Below are positions 5,770-51,266 of a stretch of DNA of 52,840 bases, piece by piece. The translations under genes were made by a program, and so were the position numbers. Each line of letters opens with the position of its first letter. Positions within the stretch are counted from its first letter, which is position 1. Under the pieces are notes generated by a model. The model saw nothing but the letters and a program-made list of their open reading frames with translations, did no database searches and had not been told where the DNA came from. Source of the DNA: Bacteroidia bacterium (GTDB taxonomy: Bacteria; Bacteroidota; Bacteroidia; Chitinophagales; Saprospiraceae); NCBI GenBank assembly GCA_018680005.1, contig JAHHJQ010000390.1:1-52840 (forward strand). Reading direction: 5' to 3'.

Positions 5770-6786
5770 TTGGGAAAAATCAATTTTTTTAAAAGCAAAG
5801 CTCCCTTAAGCCTGGAGTCAGGAGCTACTCTATCCGCTTTTGAATTGGCTTACCATACATATGGGACATTGAACGCTTCCGGTTCCAATGTAATCTGGGT
5901 TTGCCATGCGTTGACGGCTAACTCTGATCCCGCGGAATGGTGGCCTGGGCTAGTAGGCCCGGACCTGTTAATTGATCCGAACAAATATTTCATAGTCTGC
6001 GTCAATATGATTGGATCATGCTATGGTTCTACAGGACCGACCAGCATAAACCCTTCTTCGGGAAGGATATATGGAAAAGAATTTCCATTAATAACCATCA
6101 GAGATGTAGCGAGTGCTTATAAACAACTTGCGGATCATCTGGGGATAAATCAAATATTTCTATCTCTGGGTGGCTCTACCGGCGGTATGCAGGTCATGGA
6201 ATGGGCTATAATGGAACCAGACAGGTTTGAAAATATTGGTCTGATCGCATGTAATGCAAAACATTCTCCTTGGGGGATTGCTTTTAATGAATCTCAGCGG
6301 ATGGCAATTTTGGCCGATCCTACCATTCACGAGGAAGGTCCACATGCAGGGGCAGCGGGATTAGAAGTTGCCAGATCGATTGCCTTGTTGTCCTATAGAC
6401 ATTATGCCATCTATGATCAGTCCCAATCCAATGGCGACGATAGATTGATCGACTTTCCTGCAGCTTCTTATCAAAAATATCAAGGAAAAAAGTTAAGTAA
6501 AAGATTTGACGTATGGTCGTACTACTTTCTCTCACTAGCTATGGATTCGCATAATATTGGTAGAGGTCGCGGAGGATTGACAAAAGCACTTGGTCAAATC
6601 AAAGCAAAAACAGCTGTTATAGGAATCGATAAGGATATTCTGTTTATATATCCCGAACAGGAATTCCTTCAAAAGTATATTCCACATGCCGAGTTATTCA
6701 AAATCCATTCAGACTATGGTCATGATGCATTCCTAATAGAATACGACCAGTTAACTAATATTTTTACTCAATTTCTTAAGCGCTGA
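5770..6786 (+). CDS. metX: Homoserine O-acetyltransferase (apparent TTG start)
   Basis: LAYHTYGTLN..NVIWVCHALTANSD, LGGSTGGMQ nucleophile elbow, SDYGHDAFL; preceded by SAM-I riboswitch. Confidence 0.95.
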   Translation: MGKINFFKSKAPLSLESGATLSAFELAYHTYGTLNASGSNVIWVCHALTANSDPAEWWPGLVGPDLLIDPNKYFIVCVNMIGSCYGSTGPTSINPSSGRIYGKEFPLITIRDVASAYKQLADHLGINQIFLSLGGSTGGMQVMEWAIMEPDRFENIGLIACNAKHSPWGIAFNESQRMAILADPTIHEEGPHAGAAGLEVARSIALLSYRHYAIYDQSQSNGDDRLIDFPAASYQKYQGKKLSKRFDVWSYYFLSLAMDSHNIGRGRGGLTKALGQIKAKTAVIGIDKDILFIYPEQEFLQKYIPHAELFKIHSDYGHDAFLIEYDQLTNIFTQFLKR

Positions 6787-6803
6787 ATTTGTTTCAATGA
6801 GGC

Positions 6804-6898
6804 AAAAAAGACTGACGACGCTATCGCTCTTATGTTTAATTGCGGGTTTGAAGCAATTAGTTTGTTAGAGTGTTAATTTAATAGCGCCGTAGTCTTTT
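6804..6898. repeat. Long nested inverted repeat between convergent genes (bidirectional terminator, structured RNA or MITE-like)
   Basis: AAAAGACT-g-ACGACGCTAT ... ATAGCGCCGT-AGTCTTTT outer arms; CGCTCT/AGAGTG middle stem; TAATTGC/GCAATTA inner stem. Confidence 0.75.
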
Positions 6899-40006: not shown

Positions 40007-40549
40007 TCAGAACAATGCTTTCTGAAGAGGAAACTGGACTGGATTTTCAATATGCAGCAGTTTCTGTTTCATTTCCAATCCATAGACAAAGCCATGCAAA
40101 TCTCCACTTTTCCCAATTACTCTGTGACAAGGAATAATGATTGGAATAGGATTATTTCTATTCGCCAATCCCACTGCCCTTACAGCCTTTGGGCTACCTA
40201 TCTCTTCTGCAATGTCTGTATAGGAGACGGTAGTACCACTTGGAATACGAAGCAGAGTTTTCCAAACCAATTTGTTGAAATGCGTAGCATTTTTCCAGTC
40301 AATTGGTATCTTAAATTTCTTCAATTTCCCTTCCAGGTATTCCAGAAGCTGCTGTCTTGCGGAGATCAGAATGGGATGATATTGATCTCCCTCGGGATAA
40401 TATTCAGGTCCCGGATTGAGCACTAATTTAGTTAGTCCTTTTTCCGTCGACCTAAGAAAAATTCTACCAATGGATGAGTTGAAAATTATGGAAGATGCCA
40501 TAGGGCCTAAGTTAAAGAACCCTTTGCATATTTGATAATTATCCAGCAA
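40007..40549 (-). CDS. ogt: Methylated-DNA--[protein]-cysteine S-methyltransferase
   Basis: PSGTTVSYTDIAEEIGSPKAVRAVGLANRNNPIPIIIPCHRVIGKSG. Confidence 0.94.
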   Translation of the reverse strand: MLDNYQICKGFFNLGPMASSIIFNSSIGRIFLRSTEKGLTKLVLNPGPEYYPEGDQYHPILISARQQLLEYLEGKLKKFKIPIDWKNATHFNKLVWKTLLRIPSGTTVSYTDIAEEIGSPKAVRAVGLANRNNPIPIIIPCHRVIGKSGDLHGFVYGLEMKQKLLHIENPVQFPLQKALF

Positions 40550-45172: not shown

Positions 45173-48160
45173 TTAAGCTTTCTTCTTATCATTTAACGCA
45201 TAACGAGGGTCTTCTATATATGGCATGCGCTCCATTTGGGAAATTTCCATTGTCACATAATCAAATTCCTCTACGATCTTTCCTACCAGCTTATAGATGC
45301 CTTTTCCACGAAAAGGATACTTAGCTGCGACCGGAGGAAAGTGAACTGTGTCTATCCACCGGCCTTCCATGTCGAGGAATGTCCCAAAAAACATGCGTTT
45401 ACCTTTGTTCGTACTTGTGCGCTTCACCGTTACCAAGTAGCCATAGATGGTCATGATCTTACCCAGACGCTCCTTCATATCACGAGCAAGATAATTAGTA
45501 GAAGGCGACGCCTTCAATAATATAAATGGGTCATATAATGGAAAACCAAGTAATTCGATCTGATCATAGGCATTTTCCAAATCGGTAATCGAGAAATCAG
45601 GAAGTTCAAAGTCCCTGGCTGTCATCTTGAACAACGACCGTTGATATTCTATTTTGGATTGATGGTTCGTCATATAGTAGGCCTTCCACAACAAGGTTCT
45701 TTTATCCTGTCCCGAAAACCAAAATGCATCTATCCGTATCAGAATATCCAGCTGCTCTATTCCGATCACTACCCTATCCATGAAGTCTTCAAAAGATTTG
45801 TATATCCCATGCTCTTCTCGTTCTTGTACGATTCGTAAGGCGACACGGGTCTCCAACCCTGAAAGATGCTGGAATCCCAGATAGATCTTCTTTCCTTCGA
45901 TCACAGTTTCATAATGGCTGTGATTGACACATGGCGGATGAATGATGCCACCCTGTTGGCGAGCTTCGTGTACATATACCTCAGGACGGTAGAACCCTCC
46001 CCCGTTATTAAGCACAGCTACCATGTACTCCCGTGGATAGTACGTCTTCAGGTAAAGGCTTTGATAGCTTTCTACCGCATAAGATGCAGAGTGTCCTTTG
46101 GCAAAGGCGTACCCTGCAAAACTTTCTGTCTGTCGCCATATCTCCAGTGTCAATTCATCCTTGTATCCCTTGTCGCGACAGTTTTGAATAAATTTTTCTT
46201 TGACTTTTTGAAATTCTTCCCGTGATCTGTACTTACCACTCATACCCCGTCGTAAGACATCTGCTTCTCCCAGATCCAGCCCCGCAAAATAGTGCGCCAC
46301 CTTGATGACATCTTCCTGATAGACCATCACGCCATAGGTCTCCGGCATGATATCCAACATGACGGGATGGGCTTCCTTACAACGATCAGGATTCTTATGT
46401 CTCAGGATATACTCCCGCATCATTCCACTCTGAGCAACTCCCGGACGTATGATTGAACTCGCAGCGACCAGACCAAGATAACTGTCCACTTCCAGCTTAC
46501 TGAGTAGCATCCGCATCGCCGGTGATTCTACATAGAAGCACCCCATACACTGTGCTTTACGGACCACGGCGTTGATCTTTGAATCAACCAAAAATGGTTT
46601 GACGTTATGGATATCTACTTTGGGAGCATCCGGATAGTTTGCTCTTACTATAGCCAATGCATCTTTGATCTTTCCGAGACCACGTTGCCCCAGGATATCA
46701 TATTTGAATAGTCCAACATCTTCAGCAATCACCATATCAAATTGTGTCGTTGGAAAACCCTTTGGAGGTAGTTCAGTCGCAGTGAAATAATGTATAGGCT
46801 TCTCCGAAATGATGATACCTGCAGAATGCACACTGAGATAGTTCGGCATCCCGTTCAGCCGGTTCGCATAGATCACGACCAGCTGGGATAGTTTGTCCAG
46901 TTTTTTAAATGTGAATTTGCCATCACTTAACTTGTCGATCTCGTGCTTGGGCAGGCCGAATACCTTGCCCAGTTCCCTCACTGCTGCGCTATGCTGGAAG
47001 GTATTATATGTGGCCAATAGTGCCACCTGATCATGTCCTCTGAATCGCTCAAAAATATATCGGGTAACGTCCTCTCTGTCCCTCCACGAAAAATCAATAT
47101 CAAAGTCCGGTGGGCTCGTGCGATACAGATTCATAAACCGCTCAAAGTACAGATCCAGTTCAATAGGATCTACATCCGTGATTCCCAGTAAATAGGCTAC
47201 AATACTATTGGCGCCGCTACCACGGCCGACATGGAAATAACCCTTGCTCTTTGCATAGCTAATGATATCCCAATTGATCAGAAAGAATGGGATAAACTCC
47301 ATCTTGCGAATTAATTCCAATTCTTTTTTGAGCCGATCACAAATCTTCTTCGTGACCTTGTCATAGCGATAGGACAATCCCTTGTAGCAGAGATCACAGA
47401 TGAGTTTGTAATCTTCTTCCGCAGATGCTCCATAGTAGAGCTTGTTCTGATGTTTACGGTCCTTTGAAAAATCAAAATATATACTACAGGTATCCAGAAG
47501 TGCTTCTGTATTCTCGATGATTCCGGGGTAGTCTTTATAATGGCTTCTCAACTGCGCTATACTATAGAAGATATTGGTTTCATTCGCTTGTGCTTCGGGA
47601 GGCAATTTGCTCAGAAGCATATTGTTGTCGATGGCCCTTAATAGTCTGTGAAGGTTGAAGTCTCGCTTATTCCGAAAGGTGAAGCTATTGAGAACGACCA
47701 GCTTCTCCTGATACTTATTGATCCTTGAAAACCGTAACTTAGGTAAATCCCGCACACCTATACCGATCCATTCGTTGTTCGCAAACGCGGTTTTATTATT
47801 TCTCAATACCTGTTCAAATGGATAGATAAACTGAACATCGGGCAACTCCGGTGCCTCCTCAGGCCATGGGTCCTCACAGTGTTTGTGATGCGACAAAAAT
47901 CGATTGAGCTGAAGAAACCCTTCATTATTTTTGGCTATGCCTACATAGAGCTGTCTTGCGCCATCCCTGAAGTCTATCCCGATCAGTGGTTTGATATCGT
48001 ATTTTGCCGCCAGCCGGATGAAGTTGAGACAAGCCGAAGTATTATTGACATCGGTGAGCACTACACGTCTTGCACCGGCTCGCTGTGCAATCTGCAGGAG
48101 CTGTACCTCCGATATGATACCATATCTCAGGCTGTAGCATGTATGGCAGTTGATGTACAT
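45173..48160 (-). CDS. dnaE2: DnaE2/ImuC-like error-prone DNA polymerase III alpha subunit (995 aa)
   Basis: RGSGANSIVAYLLGITDVDPIELDLYFERFMN, PPDFDIDFSWRDREDV, FKYDILGQRGLGKI (catalytic Asp triad), YAFAKGHSASYAVESYQSLYLKTYYP; lacks the long C-terminal tau-binding region; QRSLF clamp-type motif. Confidence 0.9.
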   Translation of the reverse strand: MYINCHTCYSLRYGIISEVQLLQIAQRAGARRVVLTDVNNTSACLNFIRLAAKYDIKPLIGIDFRDGARQLYVGIAKNNEGFLQLNRFLSHHKHCEDPWPEEAPELPDVQFIYPFEQVLRNNKTAFANNEWIGIGVRDLPKLRFSRINKYQEKLVVLNSFTFRNKRDFNLHRLLRAIDNNMLLSKLPPEAQANETNIFYSIAQLRSHYKDYPGIIENTEALLDTCSIYFDFSKDRKHQNKLYYGASAEEDYKLICDLCYKGLSYRYDKVTKKICDRLKKELELIRKMEFIPFFLINWDIISYAKSKGYFHVGRGSGANSIVAYLLGITDVDPIELDLYFERFMNLYRTSPPDFDIDFSWRDREDVTRYIFERFRGHDQVALLATYNTFQHSAAVRELGKVFGLPKHEIDKLSDGKFTFKKLDKLSQLVVIYANRLNGMPNYLSVHSAGIIISEKPIHYFTATELPPKGFPTTQFDMVIAEDVGLFKYDILGQRGLGKIKDALAIVRANYPDAPKVDIHNVKPFLVDSKINAVVRKAQCMGCFYVESPAMRMLLSKLEVDSYLGLVAASSIIRPGVAQSGMMREYILRHKNPDRCKEAHPVMLDIMPETYGVMVYQEDVIKVAHYFAGLDLGEADVLRRGMSGKYRSREEFQKVKEKFIQNCRDKGYKDELTLEIWRQTESFAGYAFAKGHSASYAVESYQSLYLKTYYPREYMVAVLNNGGGFYRPEVYVHEARQQGGIIHPPCVNHSHYETVIEGKKIYLGFQHLSGLETRVALRIVQEREEHGIYKSFEDFMDRVVIGIEQLDILIRIDAFWFSGQDKRTLLWKAYYMTNHQSKIEYQRSLFKMTARDFELPDFSITDLENAYDQIELLGFPLYDPFILLKASPSTNYLARDMKERLGKIMTIYGYLVTVKRTSTNKGKRMFFGTFLDMEGRWIDTVHFPPVAAKYPFRGKGIYKLVGKIVEEFDYVTMEISQMERMPYIEDPRYALNDKKKA

Positions 48161-48217
48161 GGTGTTGTTTCATCTTGCCTCCTTCGTATAATTGTAGTGG
48201 TGTTGCCTGATGGAAGA

Positions 48218-49042
48218 TCAATCGAACAAATCCATCTGATCATTTCGTCTCTTTCGCGATGTGGTGGCGCCCATCCCCTGCAATTGAAGTTCCTGATAGA
48301 GAATGTATTCGTGTTCTTTGACCAATCTTTCCCCGATTGGTTTGAGTACTTCGGGGTCCTTGTTCCGTGGGGATTTGATATCCTTAGATATCGGGTAGGC
48401 ATTGAAATCCGATGGATCGAATGGGTGTAGCATATCAGTAATATCACTCAATGGCAGATCATTACTCAGCCATCTTTTTTCATCCTCTTCACTCAATACT
48501 ACAGGACTACGATGATGTCCTATTTTCTGTATCAGTCTATTTGGTGTGGTCGTGATGATCGCGAAGCTCTGTATCACTTCTCCTGTCTCCTTATTCGTCC
48601 ACTCATCCCATATCCCGGCCATGGCAAAAGGACGTTTTTTGTCCTTTCGATAAATCAGGTATGGTTTGTTGAGTCTTTCCTCCTTGGGTCCCTCAACAAA
48701 TCCATCTGCAAGGACAAGGCAACGTTGGGATCTGATCGCGTGCCGAAACATCGGTTTTTGTATGATGCCCTTCGCTCCACGATACTTTGGATCATTCTCC
48801 TTGTTGTGATCTCCCTCGCTGCGTGCATTGATGACATACATCTTTTTCTTTGCCCAGCGTGGTGTAAACCCAAAGTTGAATAGCTGCACTCGATCAGGAT
48901 CCTTATTGGTGATTACAAGCCCATACTCACCGGGACAAAGATTTACAGTGGGTACGAATCGCTCGTGCACTTCGGAAATATCCACATGGAATTCCTTTTC
49001 GATAACTTTCAACTTAGTGACGACTACGTATCTACCACACAT
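48218..49042 (-). CDS. SOS response-associated peptidase (SRAP/HMCES/YedK family) with C-terminal QMDLF
   Basis: MCGRY catalytic Cys2, INARSEGD, CLVLADGFVEG, GHHRSPVVL; ends ...RNDQMDLFD. Confidence 0.93.
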   Translation of the reverse strand: MCGRYVVVTKLKVIEKEFHVDISEVHERFVPTVNLCPGEYGLVITNKDPDRVQLFNFGFTPRWAKKKMYVINARSEGDHNKENDPKYRGAKGIIQKPMFRHAIRSQRCLVLADGFVEGPKEERLNKPYLIYRKDKKRPFAMAGIWDEWTNKETGEVIQSFAIITTTPNRLIQKIGHHRSPVVLSEEDEKRWLSNDLPLSDITDMLHPFDPSDFNAYPISKDIKSPRNKDPEVLKPIGERLVKEHEYILYQELQLQGMGATTSRKRRNDQMDLFD

Positions 49043-49172
49043 GATTGATAATATTTTACTTTATAATTAATGCCATGAGACCCGGGATATTAAGCTCCAG
49101 AAAGTTTTGTCTTATGCCTTGCCCCCTTTGTCCAATACACCTCTCCTTGATTCCTTATGCCTTTAGCCTCCC

Positions 49173-50387
49173 TCACGCATGTCGATGCGCCAATACAATT
49201 GGTGGTTCTCCATTGAATGGGTTCATCATACCTCCGATCGTCCTGGCACCCATTGTTGATGCTCTCAGCACACTTCGGCTTCCGTACTTATTCCGGATCA
49301 CGTCCATAGCGCCATACAGATCAGCTGTCTGCTGACTATCTTCAAAAAGATTCATCTGATAGCTGCCCTCTACAAGCGCACTGAATCGTACACCGACCAA
49401 TCTGATCAACATTCTGCGATTATACAAGTTATCAAACATCTCCATGACTTTGGGTATCAACACATGATCTATTGAAGTGTAGGGTATTTTCATCTGCTTA
49501 CTATACGTGTTGAAATCGGAGTACCGGATCTTCACCGTAATACACGATGTCAGCTTATTACCATTTCTCAGTTGATACGCCAATTGCTCTGTCATCGCTT
49601 TGAGCACCGTCTTGAGTTTGTAGATATCGGTAGTGTCCTTCCCAAAAGTGCGTTCGTTGGATATTGACTTGCGTTCGTGATATTCGACAAGTTGGGTATT
49701 ATCGATAGCATTCGCCTTTTTCCAAATCATTACCCCGTGTTTACCAAATACTGACTCCATCATATCCATCGGCATCTCCTGAACCTTACGTACCCGTTTG
49801 ATACCCAAATTGCACAATGCCTGAAAAGTCTTGTTCCCTACCATTGGGATTTTTTTGATCGACAATGGTGCCAGGAATGACTTTTCATATCCATAATCGA
49901 TCTTGATCTGATTATTCGGTTTTGCCTCTCCTGTGGCGACTTTGGCAACAGTCTTGTTAATCGACATACCAAAAGATATCGGTAGCCCGGTCTCTCTGAT
50001 GATCGTCTGTCGTAGTTCCGTTGCAAATTTGTAGCAACCAAAAAATTTATCTAATCCCGTCAGATCCACATAAAATTCATCCACACTGGCCTTTTCTAAT
50101 AATGGAACACGCTCCTTCAGTATCTCGGTGATCATCTTCGAATACTTCGTATAAGTACCGGCATTCCCCCGAATGACAATGGCTTCCGGACATAACTGTC
50201 TGGCCATCTTCATGGGCATACCCGAGTGTGCCCCAAAATATCGCGCTTCATAACTGGCTGTAGATACAACTCCCCTATCTCCGGTACCTCCTACCAGAAT
50301 AGGCTTTCCCCTGAGCCGGCTATCCAATAAGCGCTCTACAGAAACAAAAAAAGTATCTAAATCAAGGTGTAATATCGATCTGTTCAT
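49173..50387 (-). CDS. dinB: Y-family DNA polymerase (DinB/UmuC type), catalytically intact
   Basis: ILHLDLDTFFVSVERL, STASYEARYFGAHSGMPM, EKASVDEFYVDLTG, ISFGMSINKTVAKVATGEAKPN; C-terminal QMNLF. Confidence 0.93.
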   Translation of the reverse strand: MNRSILHLDLDTFFVSVERLLDSRLRGKPILVGGTGDRGVVSTASYEARYFGAHSGMPMKMARQLCPEAIVIRGNAGTYTKYSKMITEILKERVPLLEKASVDEFYVDLTGLDKFFGCYKFATELRQTIIRETGLPISFGMSINKTVAKVATGEAKPNNQIKIDYGYEKSFLAPLSIKKIPMVGNKTFQALCNLGIKRVRKVQEMPMDMMESVFGKHGVMIWKKANAIDNTQLVEYHERKSISNERTFGKDTTDIYKLKTVLKAMTEQLAYQLRNGNKLTSCITVKIRYSDFNTYSKQMKIPYTSIDHVLIPKVMEMFDNLYNRRMLIRLVGVRFSALVEGSYQMNLFEDSQQTADLYGAMDVIRNKYGSRSVLRASTMGARTIGGMMNPFNGEPPIVLAHRHA

Positions 50388-50481: not shown

Positions 50482-50501
50482 TGGATTATTTCCAAATATT
50501 T

Positions 50502-50513: not shown

Positions 50514-51266
50514 ATGGACTTAGCTATAGAAGCCCAGAGATTCAAAGAGGTACGAGAGTCTCTTGAACTGACACAATCTGCATTTGCCAAAATACTCGGC
50601 ATAGGCAATACTACCGCCGATATCGAACGTGGCCGGACCAAGCTACCCGGGCATGTGGTGATGAAGTTGATGCGCAATTATCATATCAACCCCCTCTGGC
50701 TTTTCGGTCAAAGTAAACTGAAAAAGATCAATGCCAGGGATATCAGCCCAAAAGTCATCAGCATAGATAATGTGGGACAAGAAAACATCCTGCTCGTCAA
50801 TGAAAAGGCAGCAGCCGGGTATGCCGGCAATCTTGGCGATCCGGTGTACTACGAAAAATTGCCCTCTTTCACCTTCCCAACACCTGAATATCGCAATGCA
50901 ACATTCAGAGGATTTCAAATAGAAGGAAATAGCATGACCCCCATTGCCAATCCGAATGACTGGATCATTGCCAAAGCACTTGAAAGCTTTGACGAGATCA
51001 AAAACGAAGGACTGTATATCATCGTCGAAAAAGATGGTATAAGATTTAAAAAAGTCTTGAAAAATGACAAGCTCCAAACACTGATTCTCATATCCACCAA
51101 TCCTGATTATGATACTGACCAGGTTCAATACACTGATATACAAGAAATATGGGAATTCCATAGTAAGATCAGCAATAGCATTGCTTATCATCCCGACAGA
51201 ACACATTTATCCGCGATCTATCATGAATTGACCAGTATAAAAGCAGCTCTTGTCAATAGTCACTAA
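50514..51266 (+). CDS. XRE-HTH + S24 peptidase (LexA/CI-like) transcriptional regulator
   Basis: HTH LELTQSAFAKILGIGNTTADIERGRTKLP; AAAGY candidate cleavage site; FQIEGNSMTPI catalytic Ser; IRFKKVLK catalytic Lys. Confidence 0.92.
   Translation: MDLAIEAQRFKEVRESLELTQSAFAKILGIGNTTADIERGRTKLPGHVVMKLMRNYHINPLWLFGQSKLKKINARDISPKVISIDNVGQENILLVNEKAAAGYAGNLGDPVYYEKLPSFTFPTPEYRNATFRGFQIEGNSMTPIANPNDWIIAKALESFDEIKNEGLYIIVEKDGIRFKKVLKNDKLQTLILISTNPDYDTDQVQYTDIQEIWEFHSKISNSIAYHPDRTHLSAIYHELTSIKAALVNSH

Follow-up and report, generated by a model that had tools for sequence, protein, structure and literature searches.

Human HMCES, a SRAP protein, is reported to bind PCNA (PMC10341727), and its E. coli relative YedK crosslinks abasic sites (PMC9436759). 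SRAP genes have been found with Pol IV, Pol V, and ImuA-ImuB-DnaE2 (Aravind 2013, PMC3765255), and a term search of that paper returned no clamp motif. In Bacteroidetes, a DnaE2B-PolY2-RecA module has been described (PMC6511836, PMC12926913); in the available passages of PMC12926913, the clamp consensus of polymerases is QxxLF, and SRAP-like proteins are linked to UmuC-like polymerases. The bacterial β-clamp-binding consensus is reported as QL[S/D]LF (PMC3716654), and the PIP consensus of H. volcanii as QxxLxxFx (PMC7776575). In the literature searched, which comprised open-licence papers, no bacterial or archaeal SRAP was described as carrying a clamp motif.

The bacterial question addressed here is how SRAP proteins locate abasic sites at replication forks. 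What is new in this study is the description of SRAP proteins with candidate clamp-docking tails whose form corresponds to the type of sliding clamp, a reading that is well supported by sequence comparison.

The window SRAP protein and its C-terminal tail

The window, that is, the whole stretch of 52,840 nucleotides that was analyzed, contains the only SRAP gene found in its genome (assembly 87% complete). Its features are as follows.

48218–49042, reverse strand: SRAP-domain protein (HMCES/YedK family) of 274 aa with a disordered C-terminal extension (Pfam PF02586, E 2.6e-49).
48239–48304, reverse strand: low-confidence helix, GMG element, and basic linker (residues 247–268), ending ...QLQGMGATTSRKRRND and predicted from pLDDT to be disordered.
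48221–48238, reverse strand: QMDLFD, the putative β-clamp-binding motif QMDLF plus a single Asp and then the stop (assigned from sequence, consensus, and enrichment statistics).

The protein shows the hallmarks of the SRAP superfamily, namely the SRAP domain and Cys2 following Met1 together with Asn, Glu, and His. In an alignment of 29 rows, M1 and N72 are invariant, while C2, E117, and H176 are at least 90% conserved, and the set C2/N72/E117/H176 matches the catalytic set given for YedK (PMC9436759). The AlphaFold2 model, for which the input alignment consisted of the window and related loci, has a mean pLDDT of 86 and a confident SRAP domain; its Foldseek matches include BT_1218, HMCES (best E 2.5e-18), and YedK (best E 1.3e-16).

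The protein terminates in ...SRKRRNDQMDLFD, and the reverse strand at 48218–48241 reads GATCAGATGGATTTGTTCGATTGA (DQMDLFD*), the 3′ end of the SRAP ORF. This confirms the QxxLF motif that an earlier note on this DNA had placed at the C-terminal end. The flexible tail claimed there is likewise borne out by the model, in which residues 247–274 have pLDDT values under 50 and are predicted to form a disordered tail. The tail had also been called basic, which holds for SRAPs with the GMG element (23 of the 157 sampled SRAPs described below; 2.8 K/R in the 12 residues preceding the motif) and fails for the others (0.9 K/R). QMDLF lies within the disordered tail and is one position off the strict β-clamp consensus (M for L); it has the QxxLF form and lacks the PIP-type QxxLxxF spacing. 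Aligned with its E. coli counterpart, the DnaN of the same genome retains the cleft residues T172, G174, H175, L177, P242, and V247, which favors clamp docking, whereas R176 is replaced by Lys, L155 by Met, and R246 by Ala, which speaks against it.

Frequency and register of the tail among SRAP proteins

We sampled 157 SRAP ORFs, most of them from 295 class-level genomes and nearly all from Bacteroidota. As controls, 1046 other long ORFs beside the sampled SRAPs were used, plus the thymidylate synthase and UDG families. An end matching Q..LF.{0,3}$ was present in 34 of the 157 SRAPs versus 5 of the 1046 controls (Fisher p 1e-26, a value overstated by the kinship of the rows). By sequence reading, the five control ORFs with QxxLF ends comprise three SplB-like radical SAM proteins, one O6-methylguanine methyltransferase, and one DUF72-like protein; the methyltransferase is the window's own, and its family is backed by PF01035. 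Judged in this way, most of the five themselves look like repair proteins. The SplB-like radical SAM proteins among these controls end QMRLF, QFDLF(R), and QLELF at loci L111, L004, and L091, respectively.

The tail was found in 22 of 55 groups, the groups being family codes or names and a few loci being counted singly. Its linker varies while the motif stays, as in RNDQMDLFD, KQNEQLGLF, and SRQRRLFED. In the order-level search, four close relatives end QGTLF, QASLF, QRELF(DED), and QGLLF. Several SRAPs of the window clade have no tail, some of them within the operon (L111, L121). At locus L003 (~6780–6843), the SRAP ORF reads through, and QLDLF with an immediate stop lies in the next frame; the frame break may be genuine or may reflect an assembly error of a single base, and this SRAP was counted as tailless.

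Beyond the class sample, we surveyed viral contigs and plasmids, and there the tail is rare. It was present in 3 and absent in 85 of 88 viral-contig SRAPs, and none of eight bacterial or phage SRAP tails from plasmids and SPbeta, read individually, has a QxxLF tail; an Obscuribacterales SRAP ends QPSLFA. Since about 78% of the sampled Bacteroidota SRAPs and 85/88 of the viral-contig SRAPs lack it, the tail is dispensable for SRAP function in general.

The sliding clamp of haloarchaea is PCNA. Haloarchaeal plasmid SRAPs end QSGLGEF, QSDLGEF, QTDFEEF, QSGLDEF, and QSGLSEY, and an Actinarchaeum SRAP ends QSGLDEFF. The pattern Q..Phi..[FWY] lies near the C-terminus in 12/12 haloarchaeal SRAPs and QxxLF in 0/12. 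Within the class sample, QxxLF occurs in 35 of 157 SRAPs in this comparison and a PIP-like end in 1, and that one matches QxxLF as well; among annotated haloarchaeal control proteins, it occurs in 0/78. A haloarchaeal SRAP query against the viral contigs found no relatives. This motif switch, QxxLF in bacteria and QxxLxxF in haloarchaea, is the strongest support for clamp docking, with its weight limited by relatedness, since the 12 haloarchaeal SRAPs are 56–94% identical and thus represent few independent events, and the archaea in the sample are haloarchaea.

Alternatively, the hydrophobic C-terminus might bind another partner, such as an SSB-tip receptor, RecA, or a protease adaptor, with the likeness to clamp motifs being secondary. 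Of the 62 SRAPs that have LF close to their end, 34 carry Q at the −3 position (background 4%) and 28 do not, so some tails may act otherwise. However, Q at one exact register, the archaeal PIP-like form, and the same motif on adjacent Y-family polymerases fit a clamp specifically, and a partner of another kind is therefore unlikely.

Relationship of the tail to the polymerase operon

The SRAP gene of the window lies between two polymerase genes, and a repressor gene is located nearby.

49173–50387, reverse strand: Y-family polymerase, upstream of the SRAP gene on the same strand, with an internal QMNLF (Pfam IMS/IMS_C).
45173–48160, reverse strand: DnaE-type polymerase, encoded downstream of SRAP on the same strand and bearing QRSLF near residue 840 (Pfam DNA_pol3_alpha and others).
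50514–51266, forward strand: divergent LexA-like HTH/S24 repressor (Pfam Peptidase_S24 and HTH_3).
50483–50493, no strand given: GGATTATTTCC, which fits the pattern GGA-N5-TCC of the Bacteroidetes SOS box and lies in the intergenic region between polymerase and repressor.

The Y-family polymerase resembles the Bacteroidetes PolY2 of PMC6511836 and is a putative member of that group, and the DnaE-type polymerase is likely the DnaE2B of PMC12926913. The repressor belongs to a family described in PMC8565304, and the box at 50483–50493 resembles the SOS box of that paper. Because GGA-N5-TCC shows no excess in the whole window (15 matches versus 12 expected), the box owes its sole support to its intergenic position. 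The same-strand gene order PolY2-like, SRAP, DnaE2B-like is seen in the window (45173–50387) and at L002, L004, L005, L007, and L091. Most Y-family polymerases adjoining SRAPs carry the same type of motif, for example, QMNLF or QINLF.

These surroundings might suggest that the tail arose within the polymerase operon, so that the SRAP and the two polymerases would share one clamp; all three window products bear Q..LF (QMNLF, QMDLF, and QRSLF), and their genes are collinear. However, 7/38 SRAPs close to a polymerase gene have the tail, as do 28/119 SRAPs that lack such a neighbor (Fisher p 0.66); polymerase genes were identified with profiles built from window seeds, and contig ends may hide some neighbors. 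Any LF end occurs in 11/38 SRAPs near a polymerase versus 51/119 not near, and the GMG subfamily has the tail in 6/10 near and 6/13 not near. Moreover, tree-based independent pairs showed no association between the tail and the polymerase neighborhood. The earlier note had implied a tie between the tail and the polymerase operon and had called for a comparison of C-termini between SRAPs with and without polymerase neighbors, with an equal frequency counting against it. An equal frequency is what we observed, which contradicts operon-specific evolution and leaves clamp recruitment unaffected. An operon-specific origin of the tail was rejected as a candidate in view of the frequencies and the tree-based pairs, and we regard the account in which the partners shared a clamp from such a beginning as very improbable.

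Turnover of the tail on the SRAP tree

A SRAP phylogeny was built with FastTree after removal of the last 20 residues, and parsimony places at least 21 changes of the tail state on this tree. Chance or neutral C-terminal variation is scarcely credible, for although the tail is patchy and often changes on the tree, shuffling the last 12 residues of each SRAP over 2000 rounds gave a mean of 0.5 and a maximum of 5 tails versus 34 observed, and the tail occurs in 0/30 thymidylate synthases, taken as a negative family, and in 0/18 UDG sequences (recovered from 30 loci with one seed, a non-random sample). Collectively, the sequence comparison, the enrichment, and the exact register of Q support the likeness to a β-clamp-binding motif that the earlier note had drawn. 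Its suggestion that clamp recruitment evolved independently agrees with the many gains or losses seen in the 21 changes, with the presence in 22/55 groups, and with the PIP-like counterpart in haloarchaea. Tethering of SRAP shields to the replication ring has thus probably come about several times.

C-terminal motifs on a methyltransferase

The window also encodes an O6-methylguanine methyltransferase (40007–40549, reverse strand) that ends QKALF. Among the 30 best-scoring class-level methyltransferase loci of Bacteroidota (PF01035; L323–L352; a non-random set), 14 have a QxxLF-type tail (e.g., QTALF, QTSLFD, and QQSLF). SRAP and O6-methylguanine methyltransferase are both single-turnover repair proteins.

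Discussion

We consider it probable that a short clamp-docking peptide at the C-terminus is in use in many SRAPs, that it has repeatedly been gained or lost, and that it is matched to the clamp of the host. In the proposed mechanism, QMDLF at the end of the flexible tail would dock into the hydrophobic cleft of the β sliding clamp, and the docked tail would keep the SRAP shield at the fork or gap, where single-strand abasic sites arise and where, in its absence, translesion polymerases bound to the clamp would act. As a short and detachable motif, the tail would come and go repeatedly in SRAPs inside and outside polymerase operons, and its form would follow the clamp, with QxxLF in bacteria and PIP-like QxxLxxF in haloarchaea. 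Both clamp binding by the tail and its purpose are what we infer from these motifs.

A clamp-matched tail would explain how a SRAP is recruited to the fork without a polymerase partner. Furthermore, SRAP tails might serve as a natural experiment in convergent evolution between organisms with PCNA and organisms with the β clamp. A wider generalization, in which clamp tethering is a general and re-invented property of SRAPs across the domains of life, with a motif matching PCNA or the β clamp, and in Bacteroidota reaches further repair proteins that act in a single turnover, O6-methylguanine methyltransferase among them, seems to us an even bet.

Comparison with known systems

Human HMCES has the SRAP fold and the catalytic residues in common with the window SRAP (Foldseek E 2.5e-18). 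The difference lies in the clamp, which is reported to be PCNA for HMCES, whereas the window SRAP has a β-clamp-type motif at its extreme C-terminus. E. coli YedK likewise shares the SRAP domain and the catalytic Cys/Asn/Glu/His set; however, its solved chains are about 226 residues long, and the alignment stops at residue 240 of the window SRAP, leaving the extension and tail of the latter without a counterpart. The polymerase pair of the window appears to be that of the Bacteroidetes DnaE2B-PolY2-RecA module, whereas the available passages on that module (PMC6511836, PMC12926913) neither place a SRAP in it nor mention a clamp motif on a SRAP. Finally, NucS/EndoMS is a mismatch endonuclease of unrelated fold, but its C-terminal clamp motif also differs by clamp, toward PCNA in archaea and toward the β clamp in bacteria. 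NucS is thus a precedent for a clamp-matched C-terminal motif on a repair protein, which supports reading the SRAP tails as a motif switch.
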